A stretch of 64,000 bases of DNA from Diphasiastrum complanatum (lineage: Eukaryota > Streptophyta > Lycopodiopsida > Lycopodiales > Lycopodiaceae): assembly GCA_029204225.1 (NCBI GenBank), contig MU832583.1:1-64000 (forward strand), given 5' to 3'. The position numbers were made by a program, and so were the translations under genes. Positions 16,939 to 48,712 of this stretch are shown one piece after another; the stretch's first letter is position 1, and each line of letters begins with the position of its first letter. Below the pieces are notes generated by a model that made no database searches, had not been told where the DNA came from, and was given only the letters and a program-made list of their open reading frames with translations.

Positions 16939-19290
16939 TTAAGTTCTTGTTCCTTGGTTTTGTTTCCAATAGGTGTTTAGAGTAGTTTCTAGTTTTGCAA
17001 GTAGATTAGCATTCTTGAACTTGGTTATAGCCCCTAGGATCTTGAAAACCGAGCAATTGTGCTGCATTGCAACTCTGAGTCTGTTCATCATGGCTTGTCT
17101 TATAATATTAAAACAATAAAAGGATACAAAAAATAGACATGCAAAAAGACAATAACAAAACAAGAAAAAATGTAGAATATATACCATGGAATTAGAATTA
17201 AATGGGGTCAACAAAAATAACTCCTCGTAATACTGCCACAGACGACCACCGTTGATGACAGTGTCTAGGAGTATTCCGTCAAGTGTTTGCAGCTGGACTG
17301 CACCATTAGGAAAGATTTTATTAATAAGATACGGTCCCTCACTTTTGAATTTCAATTTTTCGGGGTGCTTCTAAGATGTATAAAGAAGCACCTAGTCACC
17401 TAACTGTAAATCCTTGTTGCGTAAGTGACGGTCATGCCAGGCCTTTTGACATCTTTTGTTAACTAGTTGTGCATGGTAGGATATGAGTCTAGTTTCGCAT
17501 AACTGGGTTAACGTGAATAGCCTGGTCTTTACTTGTTGCTCAATTGTAGCTTTCTCACAAAGATCTGTGGAGAAGGCTTCCATGACTCTTAGAGAGGGTA
17601 CTAAGAACTCGACAGACATTACCACCTCTTGACCATACACTAGATGGAATGGGGTAACCCATCTAGAGGATTTCTTTGGAGTTGTGCAGTAAGCCCAGAT
17701 AGCTGAGAAGAGTTTTGTTTCCCAATCAGAGTGACTTATCTCTACTATCTTTGTCAATATCTTATAGATCGTCTTGTTAGTGGACTCGACCTAGCCATTA
17801 CACCTAGGATAGTATGGTGTACTCTTTCGGTGAACTACAAGGTAATGGCAAAGCAAACTATCAATGATGACATTTAAGAAGTGCGTGCCATGATCATTAA
17901 CTAGCTCAATCAGATAGCCAAAATGTGTAATAATGTTTTCATAAAGAAAACACACTACAGTCTTCGCATTGGCGTCCTTTGTTGCCCAAGCCTCAACCCA
18001 TTTAGTGGCGTAATCTGTGGTTACTAGGATTAACGGGCTTGGGTGTGTTTCACTGCTAGGCTGATTGGTCCAACAAAGTCGATTTCCCATTTATGGAAGG
18101 CTTCGCCTTCTATAATGGGAGTCAAGGGTGTGAAGTCTACTTTCGTATTTCTCTTGGCTCGTTGGCAGACATCACATGTTTTAATGATTGCAAATGTGTC
18201 TTCAAATAATGATGGCCACCACAAGCCTGCTCGAAGGATAATCTTAGCTGTCGCTTCAGCAAAGAAGTGACCGCCGCCAATGCCATCATGAGCCTGAGAT
18301 ATGATAAGCCGTATCTCAGATTCATAAGCGCATCGTCGGATAATACCGTCAATGCCCTTTTTGTATAGTTGTCTTGCTATTAGCTGAAAGGGCGCTGCTT
18401 TAAGCAAAAAATTTCTTTTTGCAACGATATTCAGGCCGTCTTTGAGTCTGCCCATTGTTAGAAACTGAGTGATCTCCTCAGCCCATAAGGGTGTAGCATC
18501 AATCTGAAAAAGACATGCATCAGGAAGATCATCGTTGACTGGTGGTTGCTTTTTCAGCATTAGGGGTCGAGAAAGGTGATCCGCCATGAAATGTTGGGTT
18601 CATTTTCGAACGACTACTCGGAAATTAAATTTTTCTAGTATTAATAACCATCGAGCTATTCGTCTTGTTTTACAAGATTTGTTAACAATATATAACAGGG
18701 CTTGATGGTCGATGTAGAAGGCAAAGGCACCAGTTGCCTGCTCAAGAAACGTATCGGAAAATCTTTGTCATACTCGTCCGGTTGTGCAAGAAGGCCTCCA
18801 ATGGCATACTTACTTGCGTCAGTATGCACATGGAACTCTTTCGTGTATTTTGGGAAACGAAATATGGGTGATGTTGTAAGGGTTGTTTTTAACTCCTCAA
18901 AGGCTTTAATACATTCTTCAGTCCATCGGATCGACCAAAACTAAGTAAACGAGTCGTGCCTTGCCGGCATAATCAATTATAAAGATGCAATAATAATTAG
19001 TGTGACCTAGGAAGACGTGAACTTCCTTCACTGTTGCAGGTAAGGGCATTTCAACTATTACCTTGAACTTTGAAGGATCGGTAGAATGATATGTCTGAGT
19101 ACTACCCCATGGGTGACCCAGATTTGACACTTATCAGGGTTGAGTGAAATTCCAAACCTACGGCAATGAATGAAGATTTTTTCTAATGCCTCACGATGCT
19201 TGTCGGCTGAAGAATGTACACACAAATCATCGAGATAAATCTCGACAATCCGATGTAACAGGTCATCTCCCAAACCATAAGTAATACGAG
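16939..19290 (-). pseudogene. gypsy copy C: RT tail, RNase H, integrase
   Basis: Read right to left: RT end with IYLDDLCVHSS (YLDD intact, 19273-19058), VFLGHTNYYCIFI (19130-18918), a damaged RNase H (18900-18600), the integrase zinc finger (18587-18030, ending CDVCQRAKR), the integrase core (WEIDFVGPISLAVK, TTDYATKWVEA, VNDHGTHF, YPRCNG), then 17757-17392 and the C-terminal part 17355-16939 (YLINKIFPNGAVQL). The middle catalytic Asp sits in NDHGTHF. Gag, protease and most of RT are absent because the copy is cut at about 19290 by element D. Frameshifts separate most blocks. Confidence 0.88.
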
Positions 19291-19954: not shown

Positions 19955-21705
19955 TCTGAACAATTCATGTTGATCACTATGCTCTTAGGTATTTTGTAAA
20001 TAAATTAGATCTATCAGGACGAATTGCTCGATGGGTTCTACTTCTGCAGGAATTCACTTATGAAGTAGAGCTTCGTCAAGGAAAATATCATACAAATGTT
20101 GATTATCTTTCACAACTCAGCACGAGAAAAATTGAAGAACCTATTAATGATGATTTTCCAGACGAACATCTATTTGAAATTTCATCCATAAATTTCGCTA
20201 TATTCTGATATTAATATTTATCTCAAAGATCAGATATATCTGGATGGTTACGATTTGGAGCAAAAGACAGTTTTTCAATATAAGGTAGCACCTTGTACGA
20301 TTATTACCAATATCTTGTACAAGCTTGGTGCAGATCATCAGCTTCGAAGATGTCTCAAAACTGAAGACATTAAAATGGTCTATAAAGCCTTACACTCAGA
20401 AGATGTTGGTGGACATTTTGCTTTGAAAAATACTATTAATAAGATATTGACTGCCAAGTATTGGTGGCCCACAATGTTCAAGATTGTATCAAATTTTATT
20501 CGTTCATGTGATCCATGCTAGAGATCTGGTAGGCCTACAAAAGCAATGAATTGGCCGTTGACACCAATCCTGCCTCTTGCACCATTTGAAAAGTGGGGGA
20601 TTGACTTTGTCGGTCCAATCAAACCTGTGACTTGACATATGAAATGTCGTTATATTCTAGTTGCAACAGATTATGCTACAAAGAACGTTGAAGCAGAGGA
20701 GGCGACGAAATGAAACGATGCAAAAATTGTTGCGACTTTCTCATTCAAAAGTATAATCACAAGATATGGTTGTCCACTTGAACTAGTAAGTGACCGGGGT
20801 ACACATTTTCTAAATGACACGATACGGTTGCTAACAACCTATGTTTTGATCAAACACAGAAAAACTACACCGTATAATCCAAAAGCAAATGGGTTGACAG
20901 AAAGAGCTAATGGAATTTTATGTAAGATTTCCTGAACAAAATTACTATTGCACATGCGACGGATTAGGATCAGAAACTATCATCAGTTCTCTAGGCAACA
21001 CAGAGAAAATCACGACAAAGCAGACACCATATTTTCTTACGTATGGTATGCATCCTATTTTCCAATTGAATTTGAGGTGAAAACTTTTCGTATTCAAGCT
21101 CAATGAACAGATGCAGAATGTATAAACGAAAGGTTGACGAATATTGAAGAACTAGCAGAAGCTCATGAGAAATCACAAAAATTAACGAAGGAAATCCAGG
21201 AACAAAGAAAGAAGAAGTATGACAGTCGTATTAAGAAATGTCATCTTAAAGCTAATGACTTTGCACATGGCTTATCCAGAGTTATTCAGCCTTTATGTGG
21301 ATTGGGAGCAAAGCCTTGCAAATTATTTTGCGGAAATTCGACACAATCTGCAAGACAAAAGGAAGTCATTTCGCTACAAGTAGTTTTGTACATATTCATT
21401 TCGGCAATTTGGCACTTTCGCGGCAAAGACATTATTTTTCGTTCAAAATCTTTATGTTAAAAGCTCTTTTATTAGATTTTCAGCTCGTTATTGTAAAGAA
21501 GTCACTCTTCGTAGTGATTTAGACGAAGATACCAAGTTAGCCCAAGAGATGTTCGATGGAACATTGCTCTCGGTTAAGTTACAAGAATTCGGCAACTTAC
21601 CAGTTGGCCGCTACACAAAATCAAAAGAAGACTTGCTGTTGATCGAAGCTCAGCAAAACTTGGAGTTTGCTCAGAAATTATATGAAGAATTGAATCGTTC
21701 ATAAA
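19955..21705 (+). pseudogene. element D RNase H end and integrase
   Basis: Plus-strand text starts with HYALRYFVNKLDLSGRIARW and YHTNVDYLSQL (end of RNase H, 19965-20120), then an intact-looking zinc-finger frame 20255-20521 with HFALKNTINKILTAKYWWP and CDPC, then the core with WGIDFVGPIKPV, TDYATKNVEA, VSDRGTHF and KANGLTERANG. The D, D and E positions are all recognisable. Stops interrupt at about 20634 and 20711, with further damage after. The tail 21134-21460 continues the GPY-like C-terminal region. Confidence 0.82.
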
Positions 21706-21713
21706 ACATTCAT

Positions 21714-22583
21714 TCATGTCTTTGTTGTGCTGATGTTTCTATGGGATGCTGCATTTTTTAAGTTTAAAGATGTTTTGAAGGTTGATTCCAGTGGAGTCCC
21801 CAGTCTAACGTATTGGAGCATATCATTGTGCAAACTTTTGAAATCAGGGAAATCAAATGCTGTCATGAATTTAAGGGAAAACAATGCAACATCTATAAAC
21901 AATGGGGTCTGGAAGAACTCCATCCAGTACTGAAAGGCCCCACCTCCTACATTGTCCCCTAGTATTTTATCCCTACTTTCTAATTCAGCAGTATCTAAAC
22001 TAGAAAGGAGGAGACCAGCATTGGTCTTTGGCATCCTAAAACTGTATCGAGGACCTAAACCTTTAAGATACGTATTTAACAATTGGTCATATTGTACATA
22101 TTGAGGACTATTTACAAAGGCAAGTGCAGGGGGTGCCGGAAGTAACACAGATAAACCACATAAAGAATTGTCATTCAAAATTGATTCTACCTTTACACTA
22201 ACAAAATCATCTAAATCGCTTCCAACAACAGGAGGAGGGGAACTATTATTTACGAGTTTAGGAGGAGGAGGAGATTTAGGAGGTGGAGATTTATTAGGAG
22301 AGGAAGATTTAGCAGGAGAAGTTAAAGATGGAGTGGAAGGAGAAGAAAGAGACTTAGGAGAAGAAGAAGGAGAATTAGGAGGGGAATGAATAGAAGAAAG
22401 AATAGTATTCAGAGGAGTTGGCTTGGAAAAATCCCTCGCTTTAGATGGAGGGTCAAGAGACCTCCTCGTCTTTGAAACACTCCCGCTCTGTATATGAATA
22501 ACAGGCCGGGTTGGTTGAGATTGCTTACGTTTTCTCCTCTCTGAATCTTGTTTTGGAGGAGAGGAGGGAGCAGGTCTAAAGTA
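21714..22583 (-). pseudogene. P/S-rich extension plus unknown domain, same frame as H3-like sequence
   Basis: 289 codons without a stop, directly following the TAA that ends the H3-like segment and in the same phase. It starts with a basic patch (SERRKRKQ), continues as a Pro/Ser-rich linker (repeats such as SPPNSPSSSPKSL and KSPPPKSPPPP), then about 150 residues of non-repetitive sequence (YDQLLNTYLKGLGPRYSFRM, FQYWMEFFQTPLFIDVALF). I recognise no family for the last part. Its only ATG lies well inside (22178), so it is unlikely to be an independent gene as it stands; more probably it is the C-terminal half of one fused protein. It ends at a TGA next to element D. A distant resemblance to the broken frame at 54780-55460 (Phe-x-Asp-x-Ala context) is tentative. 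Confidence 0.55.
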
Positions 22584-23000
22584 TTAAGCAAACTTGTCAT
22601 ATGTGTCCCAAAGCCTGAACACTATGTTGAGATCCTTGGGCATGATGGTCACCCTCTTGGCATGGACAGCTACAACAACAGTATTAGAAAAAAATTTCAC
22701 CTGAAAATCCTCATATGCTGTGTGCAGCGCCTCAATTGTCGTTACCGTCCATCTCACATCTGTAGATAGACTTCTTGTCACCTGCCTGATGGACCTCTAT
22801 ATGTGAGATTTCGGAATCAGAAGATTATTTGTCTTCTGAAGCTTCCAAATATCCTTGAGCCATGGAGGGTCTCTTCTTCTGGCCCTTGGCCTAGGAGGAG
22901 GTGGTGGTGGACGAGGTGTCGATTGTGGATTTCCCTGACCCGCACCTGAAATTGGTATTCCACCTGAATGCCCACATGCTGTCTGCTTGGTCCGCGCCAT
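22584..23000 (-). pseudogene. histone H3-like sequence (CENH3-like features), one internal stop
   Basis: ATG at 23000 opens MARTKQTACGHSGG, matching the H3 tail MARTKQTARKSTGG at 10 of 14 positions. K4 is kept; R8 and K9 are replaced by Cys and Gly. A proline/arginine-rich tail follows. From IWKLQKTNNLLIPK to about H3 residue 131 the frame aligns to H3 with no gap, and HAKRVTIMPKD is intact. I count about 33 identities in 81 core positions. A Pro after LLI and a Trp at the F84 position recall plant CENH3, but the longer CENH3 loop 1 is absent. A TAG at 22797-22799 falls exactly on H3 Gln68. The total to the TAA at 22584 is 138 codons against 136 in H3. No intron is seen. Read as a degraded H3-variant or H3-mimic sequence lying between two retroelements; function is unknown. 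Confidence 0.8.
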
Positions 23001-23490
23001 TAATGTGTAGTAGCGGATCAGTGCGTGATAATGTTGATTACAGGATCAGACCTCAGGTCGGACGCGTCGAAGTGATACCGGAGCTCAACAATTACGTAAG
23101 TTGGTAGCGGATGGGCGCGCACGAGTAGAAACGGATTGAAGGAAGTTGGTTTTGAGCATGCTGAATCAATATCGCATGGATGTAATTAACTATAAGCAAA
23201 CAAATTTTAGCGTCATCGATCAGTATATATAGAGAAAATCAGAAATATTTGCAAACGTGGTGGCTCATATTACGATGATGATTACTCAGAGGCTTGTCAA
23301 TCAAGTCAATCTAAATATCCATCAGTCTTCAAAATGATAACAAGATGCTCCGGTCGAGATTTAACAAGAGTCCTGTATGGAGGAATGGAGATGTGTGATG
23401 CAAGTGAAAAACTTCAGGAGGAAAAATATGACTGTGGCTCAAATTAAAACTTCTTATGGGAAAGAAATATCTCAGTGAATGATTGTATGC
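23001..23490. other. flank between H3-like frame and gypsy B
   Basis: No coding signal. Near 23350 the plus strand reads TCCGGTCGAGATTTAAC, resembling one unit of the 24-bp minisatellite found in the B leader (30420), so part of this may be retroelement leader. No LTR is visible at the 3' end of B here. Confidence 0.35.
23221..23232 (-). promoter_or_regulatory. possible TATA box upstream of H3-like frame
   Basis: CTATATATACTG on the minus strand, about 220 bp before the ATG at 23000. This is the right orientation and a plausible distance for a plant promoter, but there is no supporting evidence of transcription. Confidence 0.3.
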
Positions 23491-23692
23491 TTAATTGGGA
23501 ATATTGAGATATAAAACATTCATGACAAATGAGCATTTATAGAAAAAGAAGATGTACAGAAAGTAAATAAGTACAAGCATGAATATAAACAAGAAAAGGA
23601 TAAAAAAATAGGCATGCAAAAAGAGAATAATAGAGCAAGGAAGAAGAGAAAATAAATAAATAAAATGTAAAATATATACTAGGGAAAAAGTG

Positions 23693-25141
23693 TTAAATTG
23701 GGTCAACAAAAAATAACTCTTTGTAATACCGCCGTAGACGACCACCGTTGACGACAGTGTCTAGGAGTATTCTGTCAAGTGTTTGCAACTGGACTGCACC
23801 ATTAGGAAAGATTTTATTGATAACATACGGTCTCTCACTTCGGAATTTTAATTTTCCGGGGTGCTTCTTTGATGTATAAAGAAGCACCTGGTCACCTAAG
23901 TGTAAATCTTTGTTGCGTAAGTGACGGTCATGCCAGGCCTTTTGACGACTTTTGTTAACTAGTTGTGCGTGGTAAGATATGAGTCTTGTCTCACATAACT
24001 AGGCTAACGTAAATAGCCTAGTTTTGACTTGTTGCTCAATTGTAGCTTTCTCACAGAGATCTGTAGAGAAGGCTTCCATGACTCTTAGAGAAGATACTAA
24101 GAACTCAACTGGCATTACCGCCTCTTGACCATACACGAGATGGAATGGGGTAACCCACCCTGTGGCTTTGTTCAGGGTGGTGTGATAAGCTCAGATAGCT
24201 GAGAAGAGTTTCGATTCCGAATCATAGCGACTGGTTTCAACTATCTTTGGTAATATCTTATATATCATCTTGTTAGTTGATTCGGCCTGGCCATTACATC
24301 TAGGATAGTATGGTGTACTCCTTCGGTGAACTACAAGGTAATGGCGTAGCAAATTATCAATGACAGCATTTAAAAAGTGCATGCCGCAATCACTAACTAG
24401 CTCTATAGGACAACCAAAACGTGTAGTAATGTTTTTGTAAAGAAAATGCATGATAGTCTTTGCGTTGACGTCCTTTGTTGCTCGAGCCTCAACCCATTTA
24501 GTGGCATAATCTGTGGCTATTAGGATATAACGGGCTTGTGTGTGTTTCGCTGCTGGGCTAATTGGTCCAACAAAGTCAATTCCCCATTTATGGAAGGCTT
24601 CGCCTTCTATAATCGGAGTCAAAGGTGTGAAATTTGCTTTCATATTTTTCTTGGCTCATTGACAGACATCACATGATTTAATGACAGCAAATGTCTCTTT
24701 AAATAATGATGGCCACCACAAGCCTGCTCGAGGGATAATTTTAGCTGTCGCTTCAGCAGAGAAGTGACCGCCGCCAATGCCCTCATGAGCCTGAGATATG
24801 ATAGGTCGTATCTCAGAATTATAAGCACATCGTCGGATAATACCGTCAATGTCCCTTTTGTAAAGTTGTCCTGCTATTAGCTGAAAGGGCGCTACTTTAA
24901 GCAAAAAATTTCTTTTTGCAACCGTATTCAAGCCTTCTTTGAGTCTGTCAATTGTTAGGAACTGAGTGATCTCCTCAGCCCATAAGGGTGTAGCATCAAT
25001 CTGAAAAAGACATGCATCAGGAAGATCATCGTTGACTGGTGCAGTTGCTTTTTCAGCATTAGGGAGTCGGGAAAGGTGATCCGCCATGAAATGTTGGGTT
25101 CCTTTCCGAACTACTCGTAAATTAAATTCCTCTAATATCAA
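23693..25141 (-). pseudogene. gypsy B integrase
   Basis: The zinc finger (25141-24656) includes HEGIGGGHFSAEATAKI and SCDVCQ. The core (24643-24191) includes WGIDFVGPISPAAKH, ATDYATKWVEA (first Asp), VSDCGMHFLN (second Asp) and CNGQAESTNKM (Glu), giving a complete DDE set. The C-terminal portion (23887-23693) has YVINKIFPNGAVQLQTL. A stop at 24658-24656 splits finger and core, and the stretch 24190-23890 is shifted. No chromodomain is recognisable, in keeping with an OTA rather than chromoviral element. Confidence 0.88.
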
Positions 25142-29972: not shown

Positions 29973-30600
29973 AAGCTCTCGGTTGAGAGTTGATAGAAAA
30001 TCCTCGGTTGAGAATTGATAGAAAGGTCCAGTCGAGAGCTGAGAGAATGGCTTCGGTCGAGATCAGATAAAGTACTTCGGTTGAGATTTAATAGAATACG
30101 TCAGTTGTGATCTAATAGAGTACTTCGATTAAGATCCAACAGAATGCTTCAGTCGAGATCCAACGGAACGCTTCGGTCGAGATCTAACGGAATGCTTCGG
30201 TCGAGATCCAACGGAACGCTTCAGTCGAGATCTAACAGAACGCTTCGTTCGAGATCAAGACGGAAGGCTTCGGTCAAGATCTAGCAGAAAGCCTCCGGTT
30301 GAGATCTGATAGAAAGTTTCGGTCGAGATTTGAGACAAGCCTCCGGTCGAGATCTGATTAGATGTCTCTGGTCGAGATTTGAGAGAAGCCTCCGGTCGAG
30401 AGCTGACAGGATGTCTCCGGTCGAGATTTGATAGATTGCTTCGGTTGAGACTGGATAGAAAGCTTCTGATTGAGGTCTTATAGGATGCCTCCGGTCGAGA
30501 TATGACTGAAAGGCACCAGTTGAGATGCGACAGAAGGTCTGTGGCCGAGATGTCAACTGAAAGGCTCGGTTGAGATCTGATCAATGAGCATCAGTTGAGG
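29973..30600. repeat. 24-bp minisatellite in gypsy B leader (about 26 units)
   Basis: Degenerate tandem array of a unit like CTTCGGTCGAGATCTAACGGAATG, with period 24 in the best-preserved centre (about 30128-30245) and 23-26 elsewhere. Scattered single units of the same motif occur in the equivalent leader of element E (36515-36640), so the array is an expansion of a family-specific leader motif. Open frames crossing it are artefacts of the 24-bp period. Confidence 0.85.
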
Positions 30601-43156: not shown

Positions 43157-43803
43157 TGTGAAAATTGTCAACATTTCCTTGTCTAGTTTTAGGCCAAAAT
43201 TGCTAAAAATGGCACATAGTTTAGGATCTGACTTTTCACACGTGTGAAACAGGTCTAGATATTTTTAGTAAGTGTATTTTTTCAGTATGAAGAAGTGTCA
43301 AACTTCAAGACCTTCGAAATGAGTCCATTTTCATGTATTTTGGACATATATGCCAATTTTACCTATATAGGGCATATTTTAGGTAAGGAGGGTCTAGAGA
43401 GAGGAGAGAGAGTCATCTCTCTCAGCTATATATAGCAGGTAGGCCGTGGAGAAACAGGTTGGAGCAGATCCATTGTATTCATTTGCTTAATGAGAGATTT
43501 TTCTATTGGGTTCTCCTTCCATTGTTGGCATTGTGTAGTGATTGAGTTCAAGCTTTGTGTGTATGATCTTAGGTGCTTTCCAAAAGTGATAGGCTGATGT
43601 ATTATGGACTGTATAATGCTATTTTGGGCCGCACTTGATGTTTATGGAAGTTTCCATTTGTGATAAATGTTTTTTGATCAAGTTCTTTGCATTCTAGGTA
43701 GCATAGAATGTGTTGCCAATTCCTAGCTTATGTAGTTTGGAGTGCAAGCATTCAAGCCAATGATCTTGGAGTTTAGATCCACTTAGGATCTGTATTTTTC
43801 ACA
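43157..43803 (+). repeat. gag-only copia 5' LTR
   Basis: 647 bp, TGTG...CACA ends. It contains a perfect 14-bp palindrome TTCACACGTGTGAA (43235-43248) with a CACGTG core, a GA-rich/CT inverted repeat (about 43401-43424) and a TATA box just after it. Confidence 0.93.
43427..43434 (+). promoter_or_regulatory. TATA box in copia LTR
   Basis: TATATATA inside CAGCTATATATAGCAGG. This is a conventional plant core promoter position, roughly 270 bp into the 647-bp LTR; an identical site is at 48336 in the other LTR. Confidence 0.6.
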
Positions 43804-44860: not shown

Positions 44861-44977
44861 AGAGGTCATTTAGGGTTCTAAATCTTTTAAGATCTTCTCC
44901 TTCTTCATTTATTGAGAGAAAGGAGAGTGCTAGGTGCATTAGAACAGAGCCTAAGGACACAAGAAGATTTTAGCATC

Positions 44978-47900
44978 ATGACATCCAATGGTGGAATCAT
45001 GTTGGAAGCTAAAGAGAGGTTAAACTCTACAAACTATTCAACTTGGAAAGTGAGGATGGAGTCTTTACTAGAGTTGAATGAGCTAATGGATATAGTTGTG
45101 GGAATTGAAGAAAGACCTCTAATTCTTCAAGAGCAACTAAATTTTGATAGAAGGGCTAAAAGAGCCTTACATATCATAAAGATGAATGTTACCAATGAAC
45201 TTCTTAAAGAAGTTGGTAAATGTACTTCTTCAAGTGAAGCATGGAATGCTTTGAAGAAGATCTATGAGTCCAAATCCACATCTAGGGTTCTCACCCTAAG
45301 AAGGCAAATCTTCCAAAGTTGTCAAAGAGAGGGAGAGAGTGCACATTCATTTGTCTTGAAGGTTAAATCCTTGAATGATGATCTAGCATGCATAGATGAA
45401 AGCATAAAGGATGGGGAACTAGTTCAAGTCATGTTGAATGGTTTGCTTGATGAACATTCTAACCTTGTACAATGCTTTGCTATACAAAAGTCCTTGCCAA
45501 GTGTCAATGACTTGCAAGAGATCTTGGTGGCTGAAGAGCATAGGTTGCAAGCCAAAGGTGGTGGTGCATCAACACAAGGTGGAGATGAAGAAGCTCTTTT
45601 CACAAAGGGCAAGTTCAAAGGCAAGTGTTCCAAGCAAGGTAGTTTGGAGCATGGAAAGCATTCTTCTTCTTTGCAAAGTAGGAAGCAAGATAAGTCCAAG
45701 TTCAAATGTTTTTATTGTGGGATAAAAGGACATTTTGCAAATGAATGCCATAAGAAACAAAATGCTAGATCTAGGTTGAGATCTAATGTACTTCTTGGAG
45801 ATGATAATTGTTGTGCTAACTTGGCAAGCTTTGGTGAATCTATGGTCAATTTTTTGGATCCATTGGATCTTGAAGATGCACTAGTGTTACCTACTAGTCA
45901 TATGGAGTCATGTGGAGCTAAATTAGCATCATGTTTGTACTCTTCTACTCATGGACTTCCAAGGCTTGGTGGTTCTTCAATGGTGCTAGATGGCAAGTGC
46001 AAAAATGGAAAAGGTAAGGAAGGAGCTAACTTCATCAATGGAGTTGATGAAGATTCTTCTTTGGAAGTGATTGTTGCTAATGACTTGTTTGTTCATATGG
46101 AAAAAGATGGAGATGCTAAGTGTCATTCTTTGCAAGAAGATGGTTGTTCTTCTAATTCTTTTCATATTGATGTATGTAATCATGTGGGAAAAGATGATGG
46201 TGCTTTGAGCATGCTTGAAGGAAATGGTTCTTTTACATCTTTTTGTGATAAAGTCATTTGTGCAACAAGTGGTGTCACATTTCTTCATAAAAAGAGTAGA
46301 TCAAAGGTTTCTATCATGAGACTTGGTGAGGGAGATCACAAGTCAAAAGGAAGAGAAGTATGTGAAGTGTTCAAAGTAGGATGTACTTTGAATGATGTTT
46401 TTATGAACGATAGTGAGGAAGAATCATTATCATATGACTCATTACCTAAATCATTGAGTAGAAGTTCATGTTTGAAAAGAGAGAGTACTTCAATCACTCT
46501 TATGTTGAAGGTACTAAGGATTCTTTTCTTGGCTTCTAATATTCAAGAGTCTTCTACTTCTTATGGTGCAACTATCAAGAGGGAGGTTTCTAACTTTTGT
46601 GGTGCTAGCATTAAGAGGGAGTCTTGTGAAGGAAAGGGCAATGGAAGAGTGGTTCTTGGGAAGATCCAAAGCATGGATCTAACATCTCTTCATCAACTCA
46701 AAGCATTCTATGATTGTGGTGGATTGTTCATTCATGGTCAAGATGGCAAAAGGTTGGTTGAAGAAGACTACATGGAGCAACTCAAGTGGCAACTTCTTCA
46801 AGGCAAGGGAGATATCATTGGTGAGCTTATTGAGGTTTGTTATGAACTCAAGAGGGCTGTTTTGATTAGGTTTGATACTCATCTTCACCTACTCTACTTC
46901 ATGTTAAATGGAAATGTTGGAATCTATCTTTTGGTTTATGATGGTGGCATTGTTTTCACTAACTATAGTGAAGGGTCAAATTTGAGCATTGATGAGATCT
47001 TGTGGGATCTTAATCATGTGTTTGAGAGGGAGTATCTTCAGAGTTTCAGATCTGAAGATGTTCACATATGCAAGATCTTTGATGTCTTATTGGAAGATCA
47101 AGAGGTTGATCTTGGATTGCTTCATCAACACCAAGAGACAAGTGGCAATTCGAAGCTAGTGAAAAGCATCAAAGAAGAGACAAATGGTCAAGGCATTTTG
47201 GATCTGTTTTTACAGGTTCTTGAAGGTTCAAGTAAGGTCTTTGGATCTGCAAGGAAGTGTCTTCTTACTCTACCTCACTTGCCTAATCTCATGTATGAAC
47301 ATTGTTATGTCAATGTGTTGAAATTGTCAAATTTCAATAAAACTAGTTCCATAGTTTTGCATCCTTTGGATCTTGGAGATGGAATAGTTATCATTGCTGG
47401 TTTGTATGATCAAGTACATGAATTCATTCAGATCTTGAAAGGTATTGAAGTGGTCAATATGTTTTCTTTTGAACAAAGTTCAAGATCTAGTATTCTAGTG
47501 TTGGCAAATTGGCAACTTGTTGACATTGTAGGATCAAGCGTTGTGTGCAAATCTTGTGGAGGTACTTCAAGTATTTCAAGTTCAGGTTTTGGTCATTCAA
47601 ATGGAGTAGGGAACACATCTTTTTGGCATTCATTCACTCAAAGGCTTTCATGGATTGAAGATCTACAAAGGCAAGGTGGTGATGGAAGTTCATTCATGGA
47701 GATACATGTTGCATTCACTATATGTATAGTGAAATGTGGAGGAGGCATGCAAACACTTGTTGATCACTTTCATTTACAACTTGTTTGCTGCTATTTTACA
47801 GAGAAACCAGAGATGGATACATGGAGGAATTCATTAATTGAGATTCTATGTTCTTTTACATGTACCATTTTTATGATTCTATGTAAAATTGATGTAAGAA

Positions 47901-48052
47901 ATAGTGAAGCATCCTATATGGACACTATTATCTATATCAATTATGTTGTGTCCTATTTTGTACATATTAGGATCCTTGAGAAGAGATCTATTCTGATGAT
48001 GGAGATCATTCTTAAGTTGGAACAAAGTAGTGTTGTAAAACTAGCAAGTTAA
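44978..48052 (+). CDS. Gag-like protein with long unknown C-terminal region (1,024 aa)
   Basis: The frame is open from a TTG at 44912, but the first ATG is at 44978 (MTSNGGIMLEAKERLNS), which I take as the start. Residues about 10-190 fit the copia Gag (UBN2) pattern: NSTNYSTWKVRMESLL, a helical middle, then VKSLNDDLACID and VNDLQEILVAEEHRL. Residues 244-257 form a zinc knuckle CFYCGIKGHFANEC (CX2CX4HX4C). The other roughly 765 residues match nothing I know: no DSGA protease motif, no integrase HHCC or DDE, no YVDD. A hydrophobic stretch near residues 953-975 (EILCSFTCTIFMILC) could be a membrane segment. The TAA lies 13 bp before the 3' LTR. An intact ORF of this length in otherwise decayed DNA implies recent selection or very recent arrival. 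It presumably forms particles or RNA complexes for the element. Confidence 0.88.
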   Translation: MTSNGGIMLEAKERLNSTNYSTWKVRMESLLELNELMDIVVGIEERPLILQEQLNFDRRAKRALHIIKMNVTNELLKEVGKCTSSSEAWNALKKIYESKSTSRVLTLRRQIFQSCQREGESAHSFVLKVKSLNDDLACIDESIKDGELVQVMLNGLLDEHSNLVQCFAIQKSLPSVNDLQEILVAEEHRLQAKGGGASTQGGDEEALFTKGKFKGKCSKQGSLEHGKHSSSLQSRKQDKSKFKCFYCGIKGHFANECHKKQNARSRLRSNVLLGDDNCCANLASFGESMVNFLDPLDLEDALVLPTSHMESCGAKLASCLYSSTHGLPRLGGSSMVLDGKCKNGKGKEGANFINGVDEDSSLEVIVANDLFVHMEKDGDAKCHSLQEDGCSSNSFHIDVCNHVGKDDGALSMLEGNGSFTSFCDKVICATSGVTFLHKKSRSKVSIMRLGEGDHKSKGREVCEVFKVGCTLNDVFMNDSEEESLSYDSLPKSLSRSSCLKRESTSITLMLKVLRILFLASNIQESSTSYGATIKREVSNFCGASIKRESCEGKGNGRVVLGKIQSMDLTSLHQLKAFYDCGGLFIHGQDGKRLVEEDYMEQLKWQLLQGKGDIIGELIEVCYELKRAVLIRFDTHLHLLYFMLNGNVGIYLLVYDGGIVFTNYSEGSNLSIDEILWDLNHVFEREYLQSFRSEDVHICKIFDVLLEDQEVDLGLLHQHQETSGNSKLVKSIKEETNGQGILDLFLQVLEGSSKVFGSARKCLLTLPHLPNLMYEHCYVNVLKLSNFNKTSSIVLHPLDLGDGIVIIAGLYDQVHEFIQILKGIEVVNMFSFEQSSRSSILVLANWQLVDIVGSSVVCKSCGGTSSISSSGFGHSNGVGNTSFWHSFTQRLSWIEDLQRQGGDGSSFMEIHVAFTICIVKCGGGMQTLVDHFHLQLVCCYFTEKPEMDTWRNSLIEILCSFTCTIFMILCKIDVRNSEASYMDTIIYINYVVSYFVHIRILEKRSILMMEIILKLEQSSVVKLAS

Positions 48053-48065: not shown

Positions 48066-48712
48066 TGTGAAAATTGTCAACATTTCCTTGTCTAGTTTTA
48101 GGCCAAAATTGCTAAAAATGGCACATAGTTTAGGATCTGACTTTTCACACGTGTGAAACAGGTCTAGATATTTTTAGTAAGTGTATTTTTTCAGTATGAA
48201 GAAGTGTCAAACTTCAAGACCTTCGAAATGAGTCCATTTTCATGTATTTTGGACATATATGCCAATTTTACCTATATAGGGCATATTTTAGGTAAGGAGG
48301 GTCTAGAGAGAGGAGAGAGAGTCATCTCTCTCAGCTATATATAGCAGGTAGGCCGTGGAGAAACAGGTTGGAGCAGATCCATTGTATTCATTTGCTTAAT
48401 GAGAGATTTTTCTATTGGGTTCTCCTTCCATTGTTGGCATTGTGTAGTGATTGAGTTCAAGCTTTGTGTGTATGATCTTAGGTGCTTTCCAAAAGTGATA
48501 GGCTGATGTATTATGGACTGTATAATGCTATTTTGGGCCGCACTTGATGTTTATGGAAGTTTCCATTTGTGATAAATGTTTTTTGATCAAGTTCTTTGCA
48601 TTCTAGGTAGCATAGAATGTGTTGCCAATTCCTAGCTTATGTAGTTTGGAGTGCAAGCATTCAAGCCAATGATCTTGGAGTTTAGATCCACTTAGGATCT
48701 GTATTTTTCACA
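48066..48712 (+). repeat. gag-only copia 3' LTR
   Basis: Same length as the 5' LTR, with no mismatch found on a base-by-base visual comparison. Confidence 0.93.

Follow-up and report, generated by a model that had tools for sequence, protein, structure and literature searches.

The question raised by this locus is why a reading frame resembling histone H3 lies among retrotransposons in a lycophyte genome, and to what kind of gene it belongs. The locus is part of a 64,000-nucleotide stretch of Diphasiastrum complanatum DNA (hereafter the window; contig C1065 of the host assembly), in which an earlier note had read a minus-strand frame from the ATG at 23000 as H3. Its coordinates and frame are correct. 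The H3-like domain comprises 138 codons (22587..23000, minus strand), has a tail that begins ARTKQTA, lacks K9, and matches the Pfam Histone profile (PF00125) over residues 34-130 with E=1.2e-19; the score of 71.2 bits lies above the cut-off of 26.4. Its best PDB matches are chains of nucleosomal H3 (E 2.1e-18 and about 1e-17), with residues 1-130 lying on H3 1-131, and 34 of 83 core residues are identical to plant H3.1 with no gap, in agreement with the gap-free core alignment to about residue 131 that the note had described. The core retains the HAKRVTIMPKD run together with R69, R72, R83, H113 and D123, which are characteristic H3 sites. Two structure models, one from AlphaFold2 (mean pLDDT 33.0) and a second (mean pLDDT 40.2), were both too low in confidence for use. 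The frame had been described as broken by one stop; it holds two, a TAG at codon 68 within the H3 core (22797-22799, minus strand) and a TAA at codon 139, at the junction with the sequence that follows (22584-22586, minus strand).

Beyond the junction lie another 289 open codons, read in the phase of the H3 part. When the local 1.3 kb was shuffled 1000 times with dinucleotide content preserved, no shuffle reached 289 codons (maximum 192), and the longest frame in 20 whole-window shuffles was at most 195 codons, so the open extension exceeds chance expectation. While the open frame claimed in the note is thus real, its final ~24 codons and stop (21714..21788, minus strand) lie past a truncation and are foreign to the family described below. 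DNA similarity to other copies ends at 21792, and the family portion of the extension corresponds approximately to residues 1-265: 132 of 135 genome matches end at or before query residue 266, and the three that run past it are the window copy and its two near-duplicates. The family portion consists of a basic patch and a proline/serine-rich linker (22233..22583, minus strand), followed by a globular part (21789..22232, minus strand) that, in longer copies, continues into exons with DHW and QQ..CG motifs, which are missing from the window copy. The window extension alone had no match in Pfam and a single match in PDB, at E=3.1; a search for viral or phage relatives of the extension found none.

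Evidence on whether the two halves belong together came from searching the host assembly (1,744,706,496 bases, or 1.74 Gb, in 5,176 contigs) with the extension. At least 135 copies, segmental duplicates included, were scored from 9,265 first-look candidates; they are present on every contig from C1 to C24 and on many small contigs, and about 36 of the 135 listed matches, counted by eye, have no stop within the extension. Twenty of these places were fetched (L009-L028, 9.9 kb each), with diverse identities picked and stop-free rows favoured. An H3 match lies directly upstream of the extension in all 20, leaving no fetched locus in which the halves are separate. The H3 part is not always whole, being truncated, gapped or frameshifted in several loci; it is truncated or short of the junction in L009, L024, L025 and L026, and in two pieces in L010 and L028. 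The junction codon is a sense codon (E, K or D) in 19 of the 20, the one stop being that of L027, a near-identical duplicate of the window copy. Codon 68, among 18 loci readable at this position, encodes Q in 13 and K in 1 and is a stop in 4. Given the sense junction in 19/20 loci and the upstream H3 in 20/20, the H3-extension fusion is most likely the ancestral state and the TAA of the window a late lesion, which supports the view of the earlier note that a once-functional H3 variant is joined in frame to another domain. Intact fused copies do exist in the sample: four fetched loci (L011, L012, L014 and L018) hold H3 and extension in a single open frame of 417-427 codons, which starts ahead of the H3 tail and extends to ...SYITK, ...PYITK or ...PYIKK. 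L014 and L018 retain the ATG at the H3 start; L011 and L012, which are near-duplicates of each other, do not. These data show that the gene product joins an H3-like domain in frame to another domain by way of a linker that is basic and P/S-rich.

The surroundings of the frame suggest one candidate for its carrier, an adjacent Ty3/gypsy element with an extra ORF that would make the histone retrotransposon-encoded. The H3 frame begins ~0.7 kb past the integrase frame of gypsy copy C and on the same strand, as this explanation would have it, but the sister copy B has a different sequence after its integrase (homology ends at 17104/23582). Moreover, when ten loci were compared with window positions 21000-25000, only the duplicate L027 matched the gypsy side beyond 21792-23338; in the others, transposon sequence continues where the window has its gypsy side. 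No gypsy copy with an H3 frame between integrase and 3' LTR was found among the fetched loci. The H3 frame was rejected as a retrotransposon ORF on the grounds that copy B differs and that the non-duplicate loci have no gypsy flank, and a gypsy origin is now extremely improbable. Gypsy copies A, B and C have no bearing on the H3 element, nor has a plus-strand gypsy piece at 19.5-21.4 kb, and the link to LTR retrotransposons drawn in the note is not supported, given the difference in copy B and the finding that the H3 unit is bounded by terminal inverted repeats of its own.

These repeats were found by following the element outward in other copies. The window holds a 1,547-bp (1.55-kb) fragment of the H3-carrying element, truncated at both ends (21792..23338, minus strand), as delimited by blastn against the fetched copies: L013, L014, L015, L018, L022 and L028 match 21792-23338, and L010, L011 and L016 cover a little less of it, with identities of 88-93% (ten loci). 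In seven loci aligned to L010, the element breaks off sharply on the right at ...TATCCCCTAATG, which varies slightly between loci, and the flanks beyond it are unrelated. The left end was reached by extending L028 with L036 (L036 position 984) and lies far upstream of the point where L010 itself is truncated; it reads CATTAGGGGATAT, five variable bases, then CTCAAAATGGGCCCTTT. Compared with the reverse complement of the right end of L020, it is identical at 31 of 35 positions, giving 35-bp terminal inverted repeats whose two ends are taken from different copies. The distance from the left end to H3 is 6,050 bp in L028 and that from H3 to the right end ~4.6 kb in L020; a full element would therefore measure ~10.7 kb, a sum over halves from different copies, both termini being present in no single fetched copy. 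The repeats show the carrier, as far as it can be judged from its sequence, to be a DNA transposon, of which the window copy is a dead, truncated member.

The H3 unit thus sits between inverted repeats of its own, in keeping with one of the two options offered in the earlier note, that it is element-encoded. The other, a divergent host histone, is unlikely because there are at least 135 dispersed copies and a sharp end shared by seven loci. A related explanation is that the H3 fusion is a repeated host gene family, spread by tandem or segmental duplication rather than as mobile cargo. The window fragment and its neighbours are indeed duplicated on contig C12, with 99.55% identity across 4 kb, and the flanks shared by the window and C12 copies mean that some copies are segmental duplicates. 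However, the 135 scored copies occur on every contig from C1 to C24 and on many small ones, and the terminal inverted repeats, together with the sharp right end and unrelated flanks in seven loci, make a host gene family very improbable.

The family of the carrier was sought in its left half, where ORFs on the H3 strand resemble exons of a bigger protein. They matched no transposase family in Pfam; the best matches were to Borrelia families below their cut-offs (BLYB, E=0.0012, 19.5 bits versus 25) and were taken as spurious. Neither a hAT dimerisation domain nor a DUF659 domain was found among the scanned ORFs, which are decayed pieces. A Kyakuja-Dileera-Zisupton transposase, suspected from one motif, had no Pfam support, and a Helitron carrier was dropped after the inverted repeats were found. 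Two further signals were discarded: an 8-nt match at the supposed left end of L020 proved not to be at a terminus, and a 13-nt direct repeat (21701-21713/23511-23523), considered as a target-site duplication, is probably due to chance since 23338, and not 23510, is where the fragment of the element stops. Antisense frames inside the transposon (L010:5938-7004 and L010:1256-2579, both minus strand) gave no meaningful Pfam match, and some antisense frames of L010 carry weak frame-specific constraint; they possibly represent a second, antisense gene of the element. An isolated, inverted second fragment of the globular extension occurs some kb from the L022 copy (L029:5868-6275, plus strand).

Comparison across the family also clarifies which tail residues the encoded H3 has lost. 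K9 is missing in all 18 readable loci, and a proline-rich stretch stands in the place of the K27 region. K4 is present in 17 of the 18. These results agree with the description of the window tail in the note as having kept K4 and lost K9 and the K27 region, but not with its loss of R8, which is present in 13 of the 18 loci, replaced by C in 3 and by a stop in 2; loss of R8 is confined to the window copy and a few others and is not a family trait.

The ancestry of the H3 part was addressed by comparison with H3 and CENH3 references. Scores were nearly tied, at 75.5 bits for H3.1, 71.2 for rice CENH3 and 69.7 for Arabidopsis CENH3. In a tree of 11 rows, the element H3 falls outside every H3 and CENH3 row, on a single long branch (length 1.56, support 100/100); 5 of the 8 inner branches of this tree, including most forks among the H3 and CENH3 references, are not resolved. 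The tree placement proposed in the note thus sets the element H3 by itself, joining neither group, within a poorly resolved tree. LLIP and RW in the element H3 match plant CENH3, and WLKDIRKLQK is close to human CENP-A. Loop 1 is of H3 length and has no insertion relative to H3, unlike the plant CENH3 sequences compared. Plant "H3-like" variants and CENH3 (PMC4357034) resemble the element H3 in having an H3 fold by sequence and a degenerate tail. The element H3 differs from CENH3 in its H3-like tail (ARTKQTA), its H3-length loop 1, its long C-terminal extension and its location on a transposon.

Moderate evidence that both domains of the fused gene have been useful to the element came from sorting substitutions by the number of copies that carry them, in 18 rows (the 20 loci and the window, minus the near-duplicates L027, L023 and L012). 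Singletons are expected to reflect mostly decay after mobilisation, and substitutions carried by three or more copies to be mostly inherited from source elements. Omega for substitutions shared by at least three copies was 0.41 for H3 (all 138 codons) and 0.39 for the globular part, and for singletons 0.85 and 1.22, respectively (Fisher test, p=0.025 for H3 and p=0.0016 for the globular part, the two-copy class omitted). The locus choice favoured open extensions, an effect that is strongest on singletons of the globular part. In the wrong frames, the H3 values for at least three copies were 0.83 and 0.92, and those of the globular part 1.09 and 1.35. The linker showed no apparent amino-acid constraint, with a shared omega of 1.58 in its own frame and 1.65 and 0.73 in the wrong frames. 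Two results speak against selection: substitutions carried by exactly two copies show no constraint (1.08 in both H3 and the globular part), and the contrast is weaker for the H3 core alone (shared 0.51 versus singletons 0.72; wrong frames 0.60 and 0.79). Pairwise dN/dS bins were set aside in favour of the shared-versus-singleton comparison; they look too low because plain pN/pS falls below 1 in wrong frames as well. A separate line of evidence is that the H3 core has no indel, where neutral drift, with indel rates as assumed, would be expected to produce 5.9-14.8 (P(0) no higher than 0.003); the stop count alone is indecisive (P(<=1)=0.25). Together, we conclude with moderate confidence that both domains were under amino-acid constraint during spread of the element.

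The principal alternative to a selected gene is passenger capture, in which a host H3-like or H3-fusion gene was swallowed by the DNA transposon and copied along without a role, like the H3 cargo of fungal hAT elements. The absence of constraint in the two-copy class is consistent with this model, as is the decay of most copies, with only about 36 of the listed matches stop-free in the extension and one open frame in four fetched loci from a sample enriched for open frames. A fungal precedent points the same way: nearly all captured H3 copies were reported as inactivated in one case (PMC6710886). Passenger capture does not readily account for substitutions in at least three copies being constrained in both domains and in neither the linker nor the wrong frames, since a free linker between constrained domains is the picture of a working two-domain protein; nor does it account for a core that is divergent yet free of indels. 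We consider it unlikely.

What the second domain does is suggested by the longer copies. Past residue 265, these read ...GTPILVLPYIT, then ACAAA|GTAAGTG, and the GTAAGT donor is intact in 16 of 19 aligned loci, being altered in L010 and gapped in L022 and L023. The acceptor leads into DHWSLYVLSLYVNDEGVVIQF, with a DHWSLYV motif, and a later exon reads ...SSQQVDSV(N/S)CGWYTVCNAKHFFNWLALQDGLPNLEE, as read out in 11 of the 19 loci; the other eight (L010, L012, L019, L020, L021, L023, L024 and L026) were left out as near-duplicates or for having the later exon deleted or degenerate. Among the 11, HW is kept in 9, QQ in 10 and the Cys in 10, with the Asp of the motif unclear. In the joined-exon rows used for the motif count and for hhalign, between one and three residues are duplicated where the exons meet. 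The order of HW, then QQ.....CG, in a context like that of Ulp1 (PINLNQSHWALGIIDL and PQQPNGYDCGIYVC), suggests a C48-like cysteine protease, which would be split across at least three exons, with the His in DHWSLYV and the Gln and Cys in SSQQxDSx(N/S)CGWY. On these motifs we judge that the second domain is probably an Ulp1/C48-like cysteine protease.

Profile comparisons were less favourable. Neither single nor joined exons matched C48 (PF02902) in Pfam at E up to 5 or 10, and the protease exons had no match in PDB. With hhalign, the score against Ulp1 and SENP1 was 18.2, where 60 column-shuffled controls had a mean of 12.0 and a higher maximum, 20.6; when a NEDP1-like protein of the host was included, 3 out of 40 controls scored as high in both modes. 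The His motif (Ulp1/SENP1 run) or the Cys motif (NEDP1-added run) was placed onto its counterpart, not clearly above shuffles. A genome search with PF02902, in which 150 of 520 candidates were scored, gave three places, none in the H3 element. The failure of every C48 profile search favours a different model, in which the C-terminal domain binds DNA or protein in a manner specific to the element, and the H3 part, as a tag for the nucleus or for docking on chromatin, assists the element in its own transposition. This model is rather doubtful given that, of the 11 loci with these exons retained, most have HW and QQ..CG in the correct order, following conserved splice sites. Elsewhere in the genome, L032 (G000:C5:76129325-76129789) is an open host C48 protease frame with LND, HW, YDS and QQENGYDCG motifs, of the NEDP1/SENP8 type.

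Transposon silencing operates largely through H3K9 and DNA methylation. The best reading of the H3 fusion is that of a transposon-encoded H3-like chromatin effector, possibly anti-silencing; we give this reading as a whole a probability of roughly 0.6, its functional part being inferred. The H3-like module may enter or bind H3-handling chromatin through its partner H4, through H3 chaperones or through proteins that read the ARTKQTAR end; with K9 and K27 missing, it would be unable to receive the two silencing methyl marks there. The tethered protease-like domain could strip silencing proteins of SUMO or another modifier, keeping the element expressed. A more specific and decidedly speculative version is that the element has its own histone, an H3 without the silencing lysines joined to a deSUMOylase-like protease, which would be laid into or docked on the chromatin of the element and strip the silencing machinery from it. 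The H3 fusion gene may let a transposon act on host chromatin, and an element with a constrained H3 of its own, lacking K9 and K27 and coupled to a possible protease, would give direct access to the question of whether host nucleosomes can be rewritten by mobile DNA.

The protein has parallels in known systems. VANDAL elements encode VANC, which has a reported anti-silencing role and brings about hypomethylation of related elements; its KIU versions include an Ulp1 domain acquired by capture (PMC13317346, citing Hoen 2006). KIU/VANC of VANDAL and Kaonashi MULEs therefore resemble the protein described here as transposon-encoded accessory proteins with an Ulp1-like domain; they differ in that a histone part is not mentioned in the consulted part of PMC13317346, and in that the Ulp1 likeness of the present element is at the level of motifs. 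Transposon-carried H3 has precedents in fungi, where H3L of Pyrenophora tritici-repentis, like the H3 of Mycosphaerellaceae hAT elements, is likewise a many-copy H3-like frame in a DNA transposon with TIRs. In the portions of PMC3538342 and PMC6710886 consulted, the fungal H3 stands as an unfused frame of its own, either full length or truncated, and the carrier is a hAT element, with 18-20-bp TIRs and 8-bp TSDs in Mycosphaerellaceae. The element described here has a fused H3, 35-bp TIRs, no hAT domain found in its scanned ORFs, and a plant host. VANC may thus be regarded as the nearest functional analogue, and the fungal H3-carrying hAT elements as the nearest structural precedents. A full-text search of open-licence PMC papers found no comparable H3 fusion; relative to the fungal cases, what would be new is that the cargo encodes two domains in one protein, apparently retained by selection.

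Other features of the window were observed around the H3 element. A plus-strand open frame at 21495-21704, VTLRSDLDEDTKLAQEMFDGTLLSVKLQEFGNLPVGRYTKSKEDLLLIEAQQNLEFAQKLYEELNRS, ends beside the truncation of the element and has no Pfam match. Degenerate tandem arrays with 24-, 49- and 73-nt units, of the GTCGAGATCTGACAG type, occupy 30004-30599, near the 5' side of gypsy copy C. Further along is a very young LTR element: a 647-bp direct repeat (43157-43803 and 48066-48712), its two copies 100% identical, encloses a frame of 1046 aa (44912-48052) in which the Pfam scan recognised copia gag domains and no pol domain.
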